Both the position numbers and the translations under genes were made by a program. From contig NC_018207.1 of the NCBI RefSeq assembly GCF_000219625.1, forward strand, positions 372,001 to 436,000: a stretch of 64,000 nucleotides of DNA, written 5' to 3'. Shown here in pieces: positions 37,896 through 48,502 of this stretch (position 1 is its first letter; the number at the start of each line of letters is the position of its first letter). The DNA is from Zymoseptoria tritici IPO323 (lineage: Eukaryota > Ascomycota > Dothideomycetes > Mycosphaerellales > Mycosphaerellaceae). The notes under the pieces are model-generated. The model saw nothing but the letters and a program-made list of their open reading frames with translations. It had not been told where the DNA came from and did not search any database.

Positions 37896-38004
37896 GGCGC
37901 TTTTTAGAATGAGGCAGGTTCGGCTTTTCGGTATTTCGGTGCACCAGCCTCACAGCCACCGGAGATACGCGCACCGACGCGCACGGACGATTTAAGGTGC
38001 ACAA
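37896..38004 (+). repeat. left terminal inverted repeat of the MULE
   Basis: The first 45 bp (starting GGCGCTTTTTAGAATGAGG) are identical to the inverted right end. A less regular stretch follows, then a second well-matched block around GCGCACCGACGCGCACGG and TTTAAGGTG. Confidence 0.92.
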
Positions 38005-38203
38005 ACGTCGTTTTCCGTCGCGACACGTATCCTCCGTGTCCATGTTGTCCATATTGTCGATATATACGCGTTTTGCTCGTTTTAAGGTGTTGTTGTCGCC
38101 TTAATTACCACTCTTATATTATTCTCCTTATTCCCTCCTCGCTGTCGCTATTCTTAGTGCGCTACTTACCTTATTCTTCCTCGTTACGGAGTAGCTATAG
38201 AGT

Positions 38204-38289: not shown

Positions 38290-39535
38290 ATGCTAAATAA
38301 TCTATTATATAAGGCTCTAGAGCTTGTCGACGACGCGTTGCTCGATGTAGCTAGATTTAATAGTAGATTCGAGGTCGGTAGATCGGACGATAAAGGTACT
38401 AGAGTCGTTCCTATTTAGGTAAATAAGCGTTACTCTTAGCTTAAGTCTTAGCTTAAGTCGTAAGAGCGTAAGAACGAGGTTATAGAAGGCGCGGCTACCT
38501 TAGCTCTCGAGAAGGAGCTGTTTAGTAATAAGGATAAGGATAAGAAGGTACATATAAAGAAGACGCGGATATCTATTAGCGTTAGTACTATCTCCTTACG
38601 ATAGAGTAGTACTAATAGCGACGGTAAGGCGTTACTACGACTACTACCGGATACTATTTAGTAGCGACATAGGCTCTTTAATGCTCTCGTAGAGTAGATA
38701 ACGCATTAAGAGATGTATATATATTAGCCTCTCGTCGACAATATCTAGAAGGGCGATAGCGTAAGGGCATTAAGGACGAGATTAGGATTATATCGTACGT
38801 TCCGGTTTATCTATCGTTGTTATAAGCGCTACAATCCGGTGTCGAAGAAGAAGGATAGCGTACTACTAGAGAAGTAGCGCAACTACTTAACTTACGATAG
38901 TAAGAAGTGTCCTAGTACTATAAAGTTTACCTACTTTTATAAGCCTATCGAAGATACGCCTAAAGGTACCGCTACTCTTAATAAGGAAGGTATACGTGTT
39001 AACGGCGCGTCGTAGTAGCGGAATAATAAGAAGGACGCCTACCTCGTCCGTCTATTACGCTAGACTCTCGAACGCCTCTTTCCTAAGGACTACGCCGGCG
39101 AGCCCTTATATAACTACGATCTCGCGTATATCGACATAAAGAAGATAAACAGCTTCGTAACGTAGGTTGCCGGTAAAGAGGTAGCGCGTAGGTACCGGCC
39201 GGCGGAGGTAAAGGCGAATCTAATCGGTAGAGGTTTAGGGATTTCGGATAGTTATAAAACGCTCGTAAACGCTAGTAGTGCGCGATTAAACATTCTAAGC
39301 GTTTATAATGCCGTACGAGGCTTTTAGAAGAAGAATCCGGATCCTCGATATTAGGGTAAGAAACTAAGCGTATTAAAACAGGTGTTAGAGATAGTAGAGT
39401 AGTAGCGTAAACGTAAGTTATTGTTTCTTAATTTCCTTATATTATTATATATAAGAAGGTCGGAATTTAAAAAAGTCCGGACTAAAATTTACGTACCGGT
39501 TCTAAAGCAACGCGTACGAATTTTATGTCGACGGT
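38290..39535 (+). pseudogene. MULE transposase, 5' fragment
   Basis: From an ATG at 38290 the plus strand reads as a protein with scattered TAG stops and otherwise sensible composition (Lys/Arg-rich, segments such as KDYAGEPLYNYDLAYID). It is the part of the transposase left of the retroelement insertion. The stops sit at TAG, as expected from RIP of TGG or CAG. It cannot make a full-length protein. The insertion point is the ACGGT at 39531-39535; the second fragment resumes after the other copy at 46492-46496. Confidence 0.7.
39531..39535 (+). repeat. 5-bp target site duplication, left copy (ACGGT)
   Basis: ACGGT directly precedes the 5' LTR and recurs at 46492-46496 directly after the 3' LTR. 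This marks the insertion of the retroelement into the MULE. Confidence 0.93.
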
Positions 39536-39913
39536 TGTGAGGATCCCCTCACGTGAGCGCAGTCTGGCCTCATCTCCCCTAAGCTAGGCCAACCTAGTTT
39601 CGAAGAACACAACAACGAGCTATCCTGGTTACGAAGAGCGCAACAGCGTACGGATTAAGGCAGTCCGATCTAGCTTGCCTCTTAATGCCTAACGATAAGG
39701 ATCGAAGGGCTACGAAGGGATAGACGATCCCGCTTATAACGAGAGAAGTAAAGGATAGGGGAATAGAACCTAGTAGTAGCTATGTATATAGCGAAGGAGG
39801 CTCTCCTCCTCTATTCCCTCCTTTAACGAATCGAGTCGTTACATTCTAAAACCTATTGTTCGATACTTCCCTACTTTAGTCTTTCCCTGCCTTATTACGA
39901 GGCAATCCTAACA
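39536..39913 (+). repeat. 5' LTR (378 bp)
   Basis: Begins TGTGAGGATCCCC and ends CAATCCTAACA. Comparison with the 3' LTR by eye gives 15 differences in 378 positions, no gaps, all of them transitions. Confidence 0.95.
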
Positions 39914-39959
39914 CGCGATTCGTTTAAACTTACGTACTATAGTATCGAACCCCCGATCG

Positions 39960-41110
39960 ACATAGCACCTAAGGCCACTCGCAGACGCGAGGAATCTCCT
40001 TCCGACACCTCCGCTCGCTAGCAGGGTACTATACTAGCCGCTAAGTCCGACGCGGACACCGCCGCCTACTAGCTAAGCGCTACCTCTATCGCGGAAACTG
40101 TAGACGATGCCGGAACGACCTAGGAAGGCACCGACTCGACTACTTAGGCTAACCTAGTTTAAGGGGACGCACTAACCCGTAAGAAACGGAACTAGGAAGC
40201 CTAGGCGGAATACGAATTCCTCGAACTCTAGCAAAAGATTAAGGAACTCCGGAGCGAACTAGCCTTACATAGCCTAATTACCCTAAGGAGGGAGAAACTT
40301 GCTAAACTCTTCGTAGAAACGGACTATTTCGACAAGAACAAGGACAGCCTCCCTAAGTCTAAGGAACTACCCGTATTCGAAGGGAAGACCTGTACTAATT
40401 ACGAAGACTAGCTCCGCGCAGTAGAACGCAACTTCCGCAGACACTATAGATTCTCTAACCGGGAGGACCGAAAGGTCGACTACGCTGCCGACTATATAGG
40501 CAAGCTCTAGCAAGACTACTAGGAGCGCTACGTAGATTAGCTCGACAGCTAGACTACGCTAACCTAGACTATAATAAAGGGAGTTATGCTTAACTCTATA
40601 AGGACAGAGGCGGAACGCTGCGAGAAGGCCTACGAACAATTGCGGAAGGCCTCCCTCGGAGACTATACCCCCGACTAGCTCCTCGAAGAGCTAAAGATCC
40701 TTTAGAAGGAGTTAGAAGAAGAGAACGAGGGGCGTAAGATCTTTAACTTTAAGGCCTCCTTGCTATAGAACTACCGCTCCTACCTCTCTAACTACCCGGC
40801 TCCGGCTACTATGCTTATTAAGGCCTAAGAGAGGGTTAACAAAACCTACAGGATTATCGAGGGTTAGAAGCAGGAGTTAAGGGACAACCCGGGCCGTAGA
40901 AGAGGCAAGGGCAACCGAAAGAGACGCAGAAGCAACAGTGTCGACGACCAGGACTCTAAGAAGTCTAAGTCGGAAGACGGATCGGACTAGAGGGGCCTAT
41001 CTAAGGCTACTTACTACAGTTGCCGCCAGGTTAGGCACATTAAGCGCGATTGCCCTAACCCTTCCCTCTAGAAGGACTCGGAAAAAGAGGCGCCCCCTAA
41101 GTAGACGCTG
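39960..41110 (+). pseudogene. gag of the chromovirus
   Basis: The frame is rich in charged residues, with a segment reading LRSELALHSLITL-like before many TAG interruptions. It ends in a zinc-knuckle remnant in which the His and the last Cys survive (RHIKRDCP), while the first Cys position reads Tyr, as expected if a TGC or TGT became TAC or TAT by RIP. Boundaries are approximate. Confidence 0.7.
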
Positions 41111-41159
41111 CTATCTTAGTAGGCTAGGTTCTCTATACTAAGGAGCAGCGTAGGATAGC

Positions 41160-44100
41160 GGAGCCGGGTTAGCGCTGCTATAAGCGTAGGCGCCTTATCG
41201 AAGTTACGCTAACCTTAAATAGTCTAGGGAGGACTAGAACGGTCGCGGGACTAATCGATAGCGGCGCGTAGGATAACTTCTGTAACTCCTTGTTAGCAAA
41301 GGACATAGACTAGGTTATCTAGGAGCCGCCCGCTAGGGTCGCGTACAAGACGCTAAACAGGCAAAGCCTTTAGGTCCTTAGCGAAACGCGGAGCTTATAT
41401 AAGGCCCGGGACGACTTAGGACAAATATACGGATACGTCGACACCTTCAGAGTAGGGCGCATCTATAGCTATAAGGTCGTCTTAGGGATGCCTTAGCTCG
41501 AGAAATACAATCTAAACGTAGATTTTACCCTAAAAAGGGTTAACTGGAGAACGAAGCCCCGAAAACGATAGGCGATAGCCGTCGTTAGGCTAGAGAGGTT
41601 CTACAGGGAGTGCCTTAGCAAAGTAAATGCGGCACTTTATATTATAACAATCTAGGACGCGTCGGAAGAAGCCAGTCCGGGTTAGGGGGGTGTTCCGAGC
41701 GCCTACTCTAACTTCGCGGATGTCTTCTCGGAGGAACTCGCAGGCGAGTTAGCTCCCTACAGTCTATATAATCTAAAGATCGAGCTAGTAGAAGGAGGAA
41801 AGATCCCCTTTAGTCCGATATACGCCCTGTCCGAGGCAGAGATAGAGGCTATGCGGACCTAGCTACCTAAACACCTAAAGAACGGGTTTATTAGGCAGTC
41901 GACGTCGTCGGCTAGCGCTCCAGTCCTCTTCGCACAGAAGAAGGATAGTACCCTCTGCCTATGTGTCGACTACCGCAGTCTAAACGCGGTAACAGTTAAG
42001 AACAGGGGGGGTCTACCTCTTATTAGCGAGTCCCTTAACTAGCTAGCCGGTGCTAGGTACTTTACTAAGGTCGACCTACGCTATACGTACTATCGGGTGC
42101 GTATTAGGGAAGGCGACGAGTAGAAGACGGCATTCCGGACCAGGTACGGCTATTTTAAATACACGGTAATGCTATTCGGGCTTTACAATGCCCCGGCAGT
42201 GTTCCAGAACTTTATTAATAGCGTCCTAGTAGGACTAGTTAATATCTTCTGCGTTGTATACCTTAACGACATCCTGATTTACTCTAGAACGCTTAAAGAG
42301 CATAAGGATTACGTCCAGCAGGTCTTAGAACGGCTGCGACGGCACAAGCTGTACGCTAACCTAGCTAAATACGAGTTCTACAAAAGCCAGGTCGAATACC
42401 TAGGCTGCGTAGTTACCTAGGATAGGCTGCGGATCGACCTAGAACGTATTAAATCGGTCTAGGAGTAGCTAGTCCCTATGTCTATCTACGACATAAGGGT
42501 CTTTATTAGTTTTGCTAACTACTACCGACGCTTTATTAAGGGCTTCTCGCGGCTAGCGGCCGCCCTAAACCGCTACACTAAAGGCAAGAAGGCGGCGAAC
42601 TAGCGCCGAAGAGAGCGTGCTTATCTCGAATTAGACGATAGGGCGATCTAGTCCTTCTATAAGCTACGCCGCAAGTTCGCAGAAAAGCCTGTTCTGCGCT
42701 ACTATAACCTAGAGCTCCCCTGTCGGGTAGAGACCGACGTATCGGGGGAAGCAATATCGGGCATCCTGTCCTAGCCTTATAACGAGGGGGGCAAACTGCA
42801 GTAGTTCCCGGTCGCCTACTTCTTAAGGAAGATAATTGCGGCAGAAAGGAACTACAAAACAGAAGATAGCGAGCTCCTCGCTATAGTAGACTCCTTTAAA
42901 TACTTTAGGCACTACCTCGAGGGCGCCTGCTACTAAGTAGAGTTGCTAACCGACTATGCGAACCTTTAGACCCTTATAACGACGAAGACCCTCTCGAGGA
43001 GGCAAGTCAGATAGGCTAAATAGCTGTCGCAGATCGATTTCAAGACTACGTATAGGCCGGGTAAGGCGAATAGCGCCGCTAACGCACTTAGCAGGAGACT
43101 AGACCTTACTAAGGAGTCGCATTCGGGCCGATAGGCTACCGAGGAGGAAGCAGACGCTAGCGTCCGCCTCTTCCGAAAGGTATTTGCACTACCGACAGGG
43201 CAGGATAGCCTAGTCCGGTATATCGGGGCAGCGGTAAGGACCCCGAACCTTCTAGAGCAGCTCGAGAAAGCCCTTAGTAAGGACCCTACCTATAAGAGGA
43301 TAGTCTAGGAGAAGGCTATTACCGAGCCTGCCTTCTAGGCGGAGAGGTAGTCCCTAGAAGAGGGCGTTGCGTATATAAATAGCAAGGCATACGTGCTAGA
43401 AGGCGCTATAAGGCTCTAGCTACTCTAGGAATACTACGACAACCCCCTCTCCGGACATCTTAGCTTTACAAGGACCCTAGAGTTGCTTTAGCGTAGTTTC
43501 TACTAGCCCAGGATGCGGAAGTATATTATAGAGTTCGTAAGGACCTGCTAGGCATACGAAAGAGCGAAGCTACGAAGGCACAAACTACACGGCCTACTAC
43601 ACCCCGAACCCCCCTCGCTAACTCCCTAGGCCGACATTACGCTAGATTTTATTACTAACCTCCCGCCGAGCAAGTTCCTAAGCTAGTCTTATAACTGCAT
43701 ACTAGTAGTAGTAGACCGCTATACTAAGATAGTCTATTACGTGCTATGCCGGAAAACGATTACGTTAGCTAACCTCGCTGAACTTATAATAAGAGAGGTT
43801 GTCCGCCTCTATAGCTAGCCGGCTACGATTACGTCCGACCGCGGGCCAATCCTTACCTCTAAATTCTAGAGTACCTTCTGCTACTACCTTAGGGTACGCC
43901 GGAAGCTGAGTACGGCGTTCTATCCGCAGACGGATAGTTAGACGGAAAGGCAGAACTAGATACTAGAGCAGTATTTACGAACGTACTGCAACTATAAGCA
44001 GGACAACTAGGCCTCTCTACTGTCGACAGCGGAATTCGCCTATAATAACAGTATGCATACGGCAACCGGGCTAACGCCGTTCTAAGTATACATAACGAGG

Positions 44101-44720
44101 GACCTACGAAGGTCCTACTAGCCTAGAATGCGCTAGAAAGATAGCGAGGCGCTAAAGGCTGTCTAACTCGCGGAGCAGATAATTACTAACTAGAAGAAGA
44201 TACGCGAAAGACTAGCTAAGACAAAGAAACAGATAGCTAAGTAGGCGAACAAGTATAGGAAGGACGTCTCCTTTAACGTAGGTAACAAAGTCTACCTAAA
44301 CACGAAGAACATTAAGTCTATGCAGCCGTTACCTAAGCTCGACTATAAGTACATCGGACTATACAAGGTTAAGGCAATAGTTAACTATATAACATACATA
44401 CTCGACCTCCCTAGCTCGCTAAGCATCTACCCTACCTTCTACGTCTCGCTCCTTAAGAAGTCTATCCCGGACTACTCTGGCCGCAAACAGGACAAAATAA
44501 AGCAGTACGACGCAGGGGATAGGGACAAATAGGAGGTAGAAGACATCTTAGATAAAAAAGAGGACGACCTACACAACTTTAGTTACCTAATTAAGTAAAA
44601 GGGCTTTAGGGAGCACGAGAACTCCTAGGAGCCTAGATATAACATAAGCCCGGCGGCAATAAGAGCATTCCGCCGCAAGATAGGCTAGAAGGAGCTAAAA
44701 AGGCGTAGGAAGATGTAAGA
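41160..44720 (+). pseudogene. pol polyprotein of the chromovirus (PR-RT-RH-IN-chromodomain)
   Basis: Protease LIDSGA lies near 41250. RT blocks include [39 protein letters not shown] and VVYLNDILIYS, where the catalytic YxDD reads YLND (near 42260). RNase H is recognised by [13 protein letters not shown] and the tail YRPGKANSAANALSR. Integrase shows ITLDFITNLPPSK and ITSDRGP. The end (EVEDILDKKEDD, YLIK, then a TAG, KGFREHENS) is a chromodomain. TAG stops fall mostly where the family has Trp. It is a dead copy. Confidence 0.93.
44527..44700 (+). other. chromodomain remnant at the integrase C-terminus
   Basis: EVEDILDK, then YLIK, TAG, KGFREHENS, TAG, EPRYN follow the chromodomain core, with two TAG codons at the conserved aromatic-cage Trp positions. 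In related elements this domain directs integration to methylated H3K9 heterochromatin (established for chromoviruses such as MAGGY). Confidence 0.85.
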
Positions 44721-44964
44721 AAAATCCCGAGGATTTCTAAGGGACTTAGACAAAATTACTTAAATTTAAAAATTCGAAGGGCGGAATCGGCTTTATTCTA
44801 GTCTAATTTAGTCTAAGTTAACTAACTCTGCGCTATTTAACAACTATCTAGGCCCTACTATAGTCTTAATATGCTATGTCGACGTTATCTGTTATACCCC
44901 TAGTCCCGGAAGACCTACGCCCGCTATTCTAGTCTAGAATAGCTTAATTAAAGTCGGAGTCGCC

Positions 44965-45834
44965 CTAGTTCGGGTCCTCTACCTTACTACGGTCCTTAGC
45001 GGTCGTCGGAAAGACTATCTTGCGCAACTGTCCCTTCTTTAGAGCCTGGTCGCTTATAACAATGCGGTTAAACGCCTCTAAGGCAGTACTAACCGCGATC
45101 AGGCGATCCTCGGCCTCCTTAGCACGCTTATGGTCCGACTTACGGCCGCGCATATCTATTAAGCGGCGCTTCTTGCTAGGGGTGCTACTAGACTACTACA
45201 AAGAATGTTAGTAAGGGCTAGATTAAACTAGGGATAGTACATACAGCCTTCGCTAAGATCGCACTAGCCGAGCGGTCCCTCTTAGGCACCTTCTGTCTAG
45301 TATCCTCCTAGGTAGCAGTGCTAGGGTGCTAGGAGAGACCGTCCTCGCTACGGAAACTGCTATCTAACTTCCTGTTTAACTATCCTAATTAGCTACTAGT
45401 CTAGAACACGCTAGAAAGGGACACTTACGCCTCTATAGAGCCCGTAAAACACAGAACACGATCTAGCAAGTCTTCCTTCTTAGCCTTAGACTAGGTAGTA
45501 CGGCCGTAGACGGTGTCGATGTCCTACTTAATAGCTTTCTAGGCGGGTTCCTAGTCGACCGGCATCTAAGTAGGACAGTTAGCGACAGAACACGCTAGAA
45601 TTAACTAAACCGACCTACCTAAAGATAGTCCGCATTCTTGCTAGTTAGGCATCCGGAACACTTAGCCAGGATATTACCGGGTAGGGGCTTCTCTACCGCA
45701 ATCTAGCAGATCTTAGACAGGTCCTAGCCCTCCTTAACGCTAGAGAGGCATAACGAGCACGGATTCTCGTTCTACCTACTAGCTCGGACTTTCTTGTAGT
45801 ACTTATCGCGAAGATAGTAGAGTACGCCGGACAT
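44965..45834 (-). pseudogene. antisense, intron-containing Cys-rich gene carried inside the chromovirus
   Basis: Between pol and the 3' LTR, the minus strand reads from an ATG at 45834 (MSGVLYYLRDKYYKKVRASR) to TAG at 44965. The N-terminal ~70 residues hold a Cys pattern (CSLC, KIC, KCSGC) reminiscent of fungal DUF3716-like Cys-rich domains (tentative). The C-terminal 62 codons are open and Lys/Arg-rich (GRKSDHKRAKEAEDRL). Frame continuity needs introns. Good candidates are 45618-45566 (GTAGGT...CTAAC...TAG, 53 bp) and 45244-45196 (GTATGT...CTAAC...TAG, 49 bp). A third GTAAGT...TAG lies near 45428-45385, and its acceptor is unclear. Remaining stops are mostly TAG, as from RIP of Trp codons. 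It is transcribed opposite to pol and is not a usual retroelement gene. Confidence 0.65.
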
Positions 45835-46096
45835 TATGCTAGTCTAGTCGCAATGTTAGCTAATCTAGCGCTAATCTAGACCGTTCTAGAGCTAGCTGCT
45901 AGTACTTACTTTTAATAGGTGTTTGTAAGAAGAGAAGAATTCGAGGGCGAAAAAGAGTAGTATATGCGCGAGGGACCTACTTTTATTTCCTAATCGGGAC
46001 ACCGAGCAGCTAGCCTAGCAACGTTAGCAGTTGGTAAATTAAACCTACAGCTGAACGCTGCTAAAGATTCGCGCACGCAACTAAGGTTAGTTATAC

Positions 46097-46113
46097 CGGG
46101 GGGAGGGGGGCAA
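46097..46113 (+). promoter_or_regulatory. polypurine tract of the chromovirus
   Basis: A run of G with one A (GGGGGGAGGGGGG) ends three bases before the 3' LTR, the expected place for plus-strand DNA priming. Confidence 0.8.
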
Positions 46114-46491
46114 TATAAGGATCCCCTTACGTAAGCGCAGTCTGGCCTTATCTCCCCTAAGCTGGGCTAACCTAGTTTCGAAGAACACAACAACGAGCTA
46201 TCCTGGTTACGAAGAGCGCAACAGCGTACGGATTAAGGTAGTCCGATCTAGCTTGCCTCTTAATGCCTAACGATAAGGATCGAAGGGCTACGAAGGGACA
46301 GACGATCCCGCTTATAACGAGAGAAGTAAAGGATAGGGGAATGGAACCTAGCAGTAGCTATATATATAGCGAAGGAGGCTCTCCTCCTCCATTCCCTCCT
46401 TTAACGAATCGAGTCGTTACATTCTGAAACCTATTGTTCGATACTTCCCTACTTTAGTCTTTCCCTGCCTTATCACGAGGCAATCCTAACA
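46114..46491 (+). repeat. 3' LTR (378 bp)
   Basis: Starts TATAAGGATCCCC, where the 5' LTR has TGTGAGG (two G-to-A changes), and ends CCTAACA. Same length as the 5' LTR. Confidence 0.95.
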
Positions 46492-46496
46492 ACGGT
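46492..46496 (+). repeat. 5-bp target site duplication, right copy (ACGGT)
   Basis: Identical to 39531-39535; the interrupted MULE transposase resumes here. Confidence 0.93.
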
Positions 46497-48246: not shown

Positions 48247-48394
48247 GGGTAGTAGATATTATGTAGATAAACACCTATAACACTAACGACACTAACAACA
48301 CTAAAAACACTATTAAAAACTATATATACTATTAATATAATAAACATCTCTTATACGAGCACTCGGAGAATACGCGCGCCGACGAAACGAGGTG

Positions 48395-48502
48395 ATTGTA
48401 CACCTTAAATCGTCCGTGCGCGTCGGTGCGCGTATTTCCGGTAGCTGTGCGAGAGAGACCGAAATACCGAAAAGCCGAACCTGCCTCATTCTAAAAAGCG
48501 CC
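48395..48502 (-). repeat. right terminal inverted repeat of the MULE
   Basis: The outermost 45 bp (48458-48502) are the exact inverse of the left end. The inner block around CGTCCGTGCGCGTCGGTGCG also matches. Confidence 0.92.

Follow-up and report, generated by a model that had tools for sequence, protein, structure and literature searches.

An intron-bearing antisense gene in a chromodomain Ty3/gypsy retrotransposon of Zymoseptoria tritici, with homologues in two further element families

Introduction

Antisense accessory genes of retroelements are a described class, and the arrangement reported here is not new. In LTR retrotransposons they have been discussed mainly for plants, the fungal case in the accounts consulted being that of the Boty-like elements (PMC7264820, PMC5987419). 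The Boty-like elements of Botrytis cinerea are said to carry an 'additional antisense gene brtn' (Zhao et al. 2011, Virology 417:248, as cited in PMC8365987, PMC7264820 and PMC4227169). According to one review, brtn belongs with the antisense genes located between pol and the 3' LTR, and Sclerotinia sclerotiorum is named too (PMC7264820); the Boty gag-pol is described as ending in a chromodomain (PMC4227169), and a Monilinia transcript as similar to BRTN (PMC5987419). The first-pass annotation of the present locus, which knew of no described fungal family with this arrangement, was therefore wrong on that point, as these descriptions of brtn indicate. Like brtn, the gene in the window (the whole 64,000-nt stretch of Z. 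tritici IPO323 DNA that was analysed) is an antisense gene in a chromodomain retrotransposon of an ascomycete, a likeness drawn from description only.

In plants, genes of this kind are termed aORF-3R, and Grande gene23, RIRE2 and Retand (TRP28 domain) are given as cases (PMC7264820, PMC11963269). As far as these sources describe them, they share with the window gene its place and orientation, presence in most copies of a lineage, and a suspected nuclear or DNA-binding role. The word 'intron' is absent from the main texts of both papers on the plant antisense ORFs, and 'splic' occurs five times in the review (PMC7264820), including a call to look for spliced antisense transcripts. The plant genes differ from the window gene in host kingdom, and the window-type protein has no TRP28 match.

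The HBZ mRNA of HTLV-1 is spliced, and HBZ is a bZIP protein. It is presented as an antisense retroelement gene with a nuclear product (PMC11963269), and the HTLV antisense promoter is placed inside the 3' LTR (PMC7264820). The window gene is likewise an antisense gene of a retroelement, but the window-type protein has a Cys motif and no bZIP match, and its presumed promoter region lies next to the 3' LTR. Spliced antisense transcription over fungal retrotransposons is reported for Blumeria hordei as lncRNAs that do not appear to encode meaningful peptides (PMC10648671), whereas the window gene holds a conserved protein frame. For Zymoseptoria, no report of this antisense gene was found among titles and the openings of abstracts, a body of text in which subscription papers are mostly not represented, and the word 'antisense' occurs 0 times in the Z. 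tritici papers PMC8445621 and PMC7014611. The present case adds the conservation of introns in three families, the Cys motif, and the presence of the gene in most copies of a Zymoseptoria lineage.

Results

The host element

The retrotransposon in the window is a chromodomain Ty3/gypsy element, as identified by its LTRs, target duplication, reverse transcriptase (RT) and a chromodomain that ends pol:

39536..46491, plus strand: Ty3/gypsy element (family 1), with a 5-bp target duplication, ACGGT, at 39531-39535 and 46492-46496
39536..39913, plus strand: 5' LTR, 378 bp
42124..42420, plus strand: RT segment (PF00078, E = 1.4e-19)
44281..44460, plus strand: Tf2-1-like SH3 domain at the end of pol (PF24626, E = 4.2e-12)
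44533..44676, plus strand: chromodomain (PF00385, E = 4.9e-7)
46098..46113, plus strand: purine-rich tract immediately 5' of the 3' LTR
46114..46491, plus strand: 3' LTR, 378 bp

RIP indices are high across about 38.0-48.5 kb of the window. Inverted repeats of 89 nt (37951-38039 and 48361-48449) lie on both sides of the RIP-mutated region; the left repeat end matches other places in the genome, several of which have a second inverted end, mostly 3.6-4.6 kb off. Because of these repeats and the inverted partner ends of their genomic matches, the gypsy element seems to be nested in an older DNA transposon with terminal inverted repeats.

The antisense gene model

Between the chromodomain and the 3' LTR, on the strand opposite to gag-pol, lies a decayed gene with a predicted protein of ~262 aa:

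44944..45909, minus strand: decayed antisense gene, from the 5'-UTR intron donor to the stop codon
45910..46097, minus strand: presumed own promoter region, a pyrimidine-rich tract upstream of the 5'-UTR intron
45844..45909, minus strand: 5'-UTR intron, 66 nt (GTAAGT, GCTAAC, TAG), with a 65-nt counterpart in family-2 copy L040
45619..45834, minus strand: exon 1, 72 codons, ATG at 45834-45832
45625..45759, minus strand: Cys motif C-x2-C-x13-C-x15-C-x2-C-x7-C, the sixth position being Tyr in the window copy
45566..45618, minus strand: intron 1, 53 nt, phase 0
45245..45565, minus strand: exon 2, 107 codons
45196..45244, minus strand: intron 2, 49 nt, phase 0
44947..45195, minus strand: exon 3, 83 codons
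45118..45174, minus strand: basic stretch (KKRR, RGRK and KRAK clusters), a possible nuclear localisation signal
44944..44946, minus strand: TAA stop codon

The minus-strand frame proposed in the first-pass annotation was reproduced, with its ATG, the Cys-rich N-terminal part (exon 1) and the basic C-terminal part (exon 3), and the two coding introns it had placed at 45618-45566 and 45244-45196 were confirmed, with matching boundaries in two other gypsy families. Its outline of the gene holds at the ATG (45834), and exon 3 continues past its end at 44965 to the TAA at 44944-44946; its two introns stand, and a third, the 5'-UTR intron at 45909-45844 just upstream of the ATG, had been overlooked. 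The placement, antisense to gag-pol and between pol and the 3' LTR, is that of an aORF-3R. That an intron-bearing antisense gene is real here we regard as nearly certain.

Frame and intron tests

Three matches to an intron pattern composed after the introns had been seen (GTRNGT donor, CTRAC branch, YAG acceptor, 45-80 nt) occur on the minus strand of 44944-46113, whereas 300 second-order Markov shuffles averaged 0.17 and just one of them reached three; on the sense strand of the whole element there are 0. One more minus-strand intron-like pattern, 67 nt at 43986 in pol, is most likely due to chance.

Under a codon model trained on pol of the same element, itself RIP-mutated, the spliced antisense frame scored +0.132 bits per codon, a value matched by 0 of 2000 first-order Markov nulls taking the best of six frames. 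In every exon the claimed frame ranked first among the six, by a clear margin in exon 3 (0.241 vs -0.018) and by a slim one in exons 1 (0.137 vs 0.097) and 2 (0.038 vs 0.007). In the window copy, stops are not depleted in exon 2 (10 in 107 codons vs a null mean of 8.9), not clearly depleted in exon 1 (4 in 72 vs 5.8, P = 0.30) and low in exon 3 (2 in 83 vs 6.2, P = 0.048). With no shortage of stops in the first two exons, the single frame is weak in this copy, and stop codons by themselves would not reveal the gene.

At the sequence level, the decisive evidence comes from comparison between families, made by Smith-Waterman scoring of 36 frame pairs, exon by exon. The first-pass annotation had named a shadow of a sense-strand reading as a result that would speak against it; between families 1 and 2 the antisense frame pair was best in all three exons (exon 1, 165 vs 80; exon 2, 121 vs 58; exon 3, 64 vs 40). 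The antisense pair was also top in exon 1 for families 1 vs 3 (60 vs 31) and 2 vs 3 (99 vs 56). In exon 2, families 2 vs 3 gave a narrow top (56 vs 54) in the frame expected after an extra intron (see below), and the expected pair was not resolved for families 1 vs 3; in exon 3 it ranked third for families 1 vs 3 (38, top 39) and lay outside the top three for families 2 vs 3 (43, 42, 36). Where frame scores fail, the proposed link of exons 2 and 3 to family 3 draws on the order of the exons, the phase of the introns and a small number of residues.

Homologous genes in three families

The genome searched comprised 39,686,251 bases in 21 contigs. The antisense region is present at 21 family-1 loci (22 matches, one locus being split in two), and two further gypsy families have a homologue of the gene, likewise placed and oriented. 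A search with exon 1 gave 65 matches, namely the 21 of family 1 and 44 more distant ones; exon 1 of family 2 is 39-54% identical to that of family 1 (best E = 2.9e-16). Family-2 exon 1 gave weak genome matches in a third family (E = 0.006 and 0.014); by tblastn with family 2, family-3 exon 1 was found with E = 2.5e-5, and genome matches were obtained in both directions. Four family-3 loci were fetched, L052 being the one followed through all exons. In family 3, exon 1 has the CFQ boundary of the other families at its end, followed by a GTATGT donor, and exon 3 contains TPRKRLI. Family-3 exon 1 has 52 matches (69 listed, 17 of them family 2), and exon-3 matches number 52 for family 3 and 45 for family 2. 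The first-pass annotation had suggested looking in related elements for the antisense gene; with its introns, it is thus present at the same place, past the chromodomain and before the 3' LTR, in three families, in RIP-decayed copies.

A search with the RT segment yielded 150 scored matches from 270 candidates, and the RT counts are lower bounds. An antisense exon 1 accompanies 96 of these 150 listed RT loci, mostly 3.2-3.4 kb downstream and on the other strand. Among the listed RT matches of at least 69% identity, 57 of 65 have an exon 1 downstream on the opposite strand within 2.5-4.5 kb (family 1, 18/21; family 2, 39/44), and 52 of the 57 pairs are spaced at 3.20-3.24 kb. Among those of 42-63% identity, 39 of 85 are paired with a family-3 exon 1 (2.5-5.5 kb; 32 of the 39 at 3.37-3.41 kb) and 46 are unpaired; none of 20 hand-picked matches from these 85 was paired with a family-1 or family-2 exon. 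Counted from the exons, 39 of the 52 family-3 exon-1 matches have a partner among the RT matches listed and the remaining 13 do not, as is the case for 8 of the 65 exon-1 matches at 2.5-4.5 kb; five of those eight, when fetched, were family-1 or family-2 copies (L009, L026, L028, L041 and L042). In families 1 and 2 the gene thus accompanies most of the listed RT matches, unlike a simple gene transduction, which would affect one or a few copies.

Two side observations concern single loci. A stop-free fragment at G000:C2:1894087-1894200 is 71% identical to family-2 exon 1 over its first 38 residues. Family-1 copies L011 and L015 stand in tandem (G000:C2:3225367-3240414), with LTR matches at 3226184, 3232762 and 3239340 and one LTR apparently common to both.

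Introns across copies

Intron sequence is present at both coding sites in 21/21 family-1 copies and in all 23 family-2 copies fetched, with no intron-less copy among them, in agreement with the earlier proposal that the introns are kept through copying. In family 1, intron 1 has kept its GT and AG, and the 5'-UTR intron its donor and branch, in 21/21 copies; intron 2 has kept its AG in all 21 and its donor GT (45243-45244, minus strand) in 13, the loss in the other 8 possibly being due to RIP. In family 2, the donor GT is present in 22/23 copies for intron 1 (not L035) and 22/23 for intron 2 (not L051), and the acceptor TAG in 23/23 for each.

Family-2 copy L040 has coding introns of 56 nt and 51 nt at the family-1 boundaries, in phase 0, and a 65-nt intron ahead of the ATG; the 5'-UTR intron is common to families 1 and 2. 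Within the precision of the alignment, the boundaries of the two coding introns also match in family-3 copy L052, again in phase 0. L052 also has a putative extra intron of ~49 nt inside exon 2 (minus strand, ~820-868), absent from families 1 and 2. An extra intron considered inside family-1 exon 2 was dropped, since family 2 aligns straight through.

Decay and selection

All counted gene copies in this genome are dead. In-frame stops number 11-17 in 20 of 21 family-1 copies (L023 was left unscored because of a deletion) and 4-14 in 22 of 23 family-2 copies (L051, partially aligned, was not counted), and no intact copy occurs among these 20 and 22 scored spliced copies; family-3 copy L052 has two stops in exon 1. 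The window copy has 16 stops, of which 15 were examined: 8 are a sense codon in at least one other copy and 7 are stops in all copies.

RIP makes transitions, not transversions. In the family-1 alignment (22 rows, one duplicating part of L015), 345 of 1520 columns vary, 337 of them by plain transitions. Because the copies differ almost only by such RIP-type changes, they carry little information on selection within the family. Transversions at codon positions 1, 2 and 3 number 74, 65 and 94 (P = 0.059, which misses 0.05), and a transversion-only pN/pS of 0.66 was obtained over 257 aligned codons in an alignment built on protein, a value that would indicate moderate constraint only. Taken together, the in-frame similarity, five invariant Cys and a pN/pS below 1 point to selection on a protein.

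The predicted protein

Five Cys are invariant in an alignment of one copy from each of the three families. A sixth Cys occurs in the rows of families 2 and 3 and in 11/21 family-1 copies, the remaining family-1 copies having Tyr there; the other five positions are Cys in 17-21 of the 21 family-1 copies and otherwise Tyr. In all three families, clusters of basic residues lie close to the start of exon 3; its end is acidic in families 1 and 2 and less so in family 3.

The DUF3716 profile proposed by the first-pass annotation was covered in a Pfam search that gave no match for families 1 and 2 and the deposited models P0001-P0003 described below (E up to 10) or for family 3 (E up to 5), HMMER filters being able to discard weak matches; among these same sequences there was no match to TRP28 (PF04195) or to a bZIP domain. 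The six-Cys order CxxC...C...CxxC...C is present without a Pfam zinc-cluster match, and the Cys spacing of Zn2Cys6 clusters is shorter than that of this motif. The N-terminal Cys motif is probably zinc-binding.

PDB sequence matches to 4rv1 (E = 0.0057, an engineered protein, with no single stretch passing) and 21nx (E = 1.6) were taken as chance, and P0001 had no match in PDB by sequence. AlphaFold models were of low confidence (mean pLDDT 43.6 and 51.9). In viral contigs, 34 and 32 stretches fitted a pattern, and tblastn showed zero relatives.

Discussion

We propose that a chromodomain Ty3/gypsy lineage has, as a fixed component, an accessory gene that runs antisense to gag-pol in the interval from pol to the 3' LTR. 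Its transcription would proceed leftward from a promoter of its own, upstream of the ATG and short of the 3' LTR, presumably within the ~200 bases that separate the LTR from the 5'-UTR intron and contain the pyrimidine-rich tract; an independent promoter is plausible. Splicing would occur on the antisense RNA only, and the introns would survive each round of reverse transcription because the sense RNA, from which copies come, shows no splice pattern over them. The retained introns fit copying from sense RNA only. With somewhat less certainty, the protein may be nuclear, bind nucleic acid and regulate the element's expression or integration. Its Cys motif and basic patch suggest this, as does analogy with the antisense proteins of plant elements, for which such a role has been proposed, and with HTLV HBZ, for which it is known.

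The gene is probably an accessory gene co-inherited with the element lineage, whose product may be a nucleic-acid-binding regulator. As the best explanation overall, a lineage-fixed antisense accessory gene with its own promoter and a regulator protein would have a probability of about 0.6; for the protein's role as a nucleic-acid-binding regulator, judged from motifs and analogy, we see even odds. A bolder version, which we offer tentatively and would not bet on, is that the lineage has retained, as a stable component, an ancient antisense gene with introns whose product is a Cys-rich protein of the nucleus. This gene would have evolved independently of the antisense regulators of plant elements and retroviruses and have no relation to brtn, and its introns would act as a strand filter: only the antisense mRNA would make protein, and the sense genomic RNA would always pass the introns on.

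Alternatively, the spliced antisense transcript rather than a protein may be what is conserved, pairing with genomic RNA and feeding or blocking silencing. Spliced antisense lncRNAs from retrotransposons of Blumeria hordei (PMC10648671) and the antisense-RNA role discussed for plant antisense ORFs (PMC7264820), as presented in those sources, lend this some plausibility, but in each of the three exons the antisense frame gives the highest protein similarity of family 1 to family 2, five Cys are shared without change by the three families and the transversion pN/pS is below 1, and we consider it unlikely as the whole account. Protein and RNA roles may both operate together.

The first-pass annotation had also suggested a captured host gene, that is, cargo with a cellular function unrelated to the element. 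Ordinary fungal introns and the lack of a match to known protein families are compatible with such an origin. Its presence in three families at one place, however, argues for a gene that is old and fixed in the lineage, and the exon-1 genome matches, as far as examined, belong to the three families. Capture is not supported by the exon-1 genome searches with each family, which revealed no recognisable host-gene relative among the matches examined (all except 3 of the 65 exon-1 matches, 13 of the 52 family-3 matches and the fragment C2:1894087), and it too appears improbable, although an ancient capture may lie behind the gene. The remaining alternative, in which the frame merely mirrors a sense-strand reading or arose by chance in RIP-mutated sequence, has a negligible chance of being right: exons 1 and 2 are not stop-poor in the window copy and a stop-free sense frame of 80 aa overlaps exon 3, but no null matched the codon score, three intron patterns fall on one strand of the region and zero on the other, the best alternative frame pair reaches about half the antisense score in exons 1 and 2 and 40 vs 64 in exon 3, and the splice junctions are common to deposited models.

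On the reading of a lineage-fixed antisense accessory gene, spliced antisense reads would be a clean RNA marker for when such genes are expressed.

Deposited protein models

Searched singly against proteins, the family-1 and family-2 sequences gave no match with E of 1 or less. A profile built from all three families, searched by scoring the 8000 candidates sharing most words, matched three uncharacterised Z. tritici proteins, P0001 (family 2; isolate ST99CH_1A5) and P0002 and P0003 (family 3; both from isolate ST99CH_1E4), and no relative outside Z. tritici among the 8000 scored candidates. All three are stop-free but partial: P0001 omits a stretch of exon 2 and ends early, P0002 begins within the gene, and P0003 terminates inside exon 2. 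They show that a separate annotation arrived at the same junctions, and say nothing on transcription or expression. P0001 joins exon 1 to exon 2 as we do here, P0003 makes the same join and spans the extra intron, and P0002 spans the extra intron and intron 2; pieces of the gene are in this way already in public records as uncharacterised proteins.
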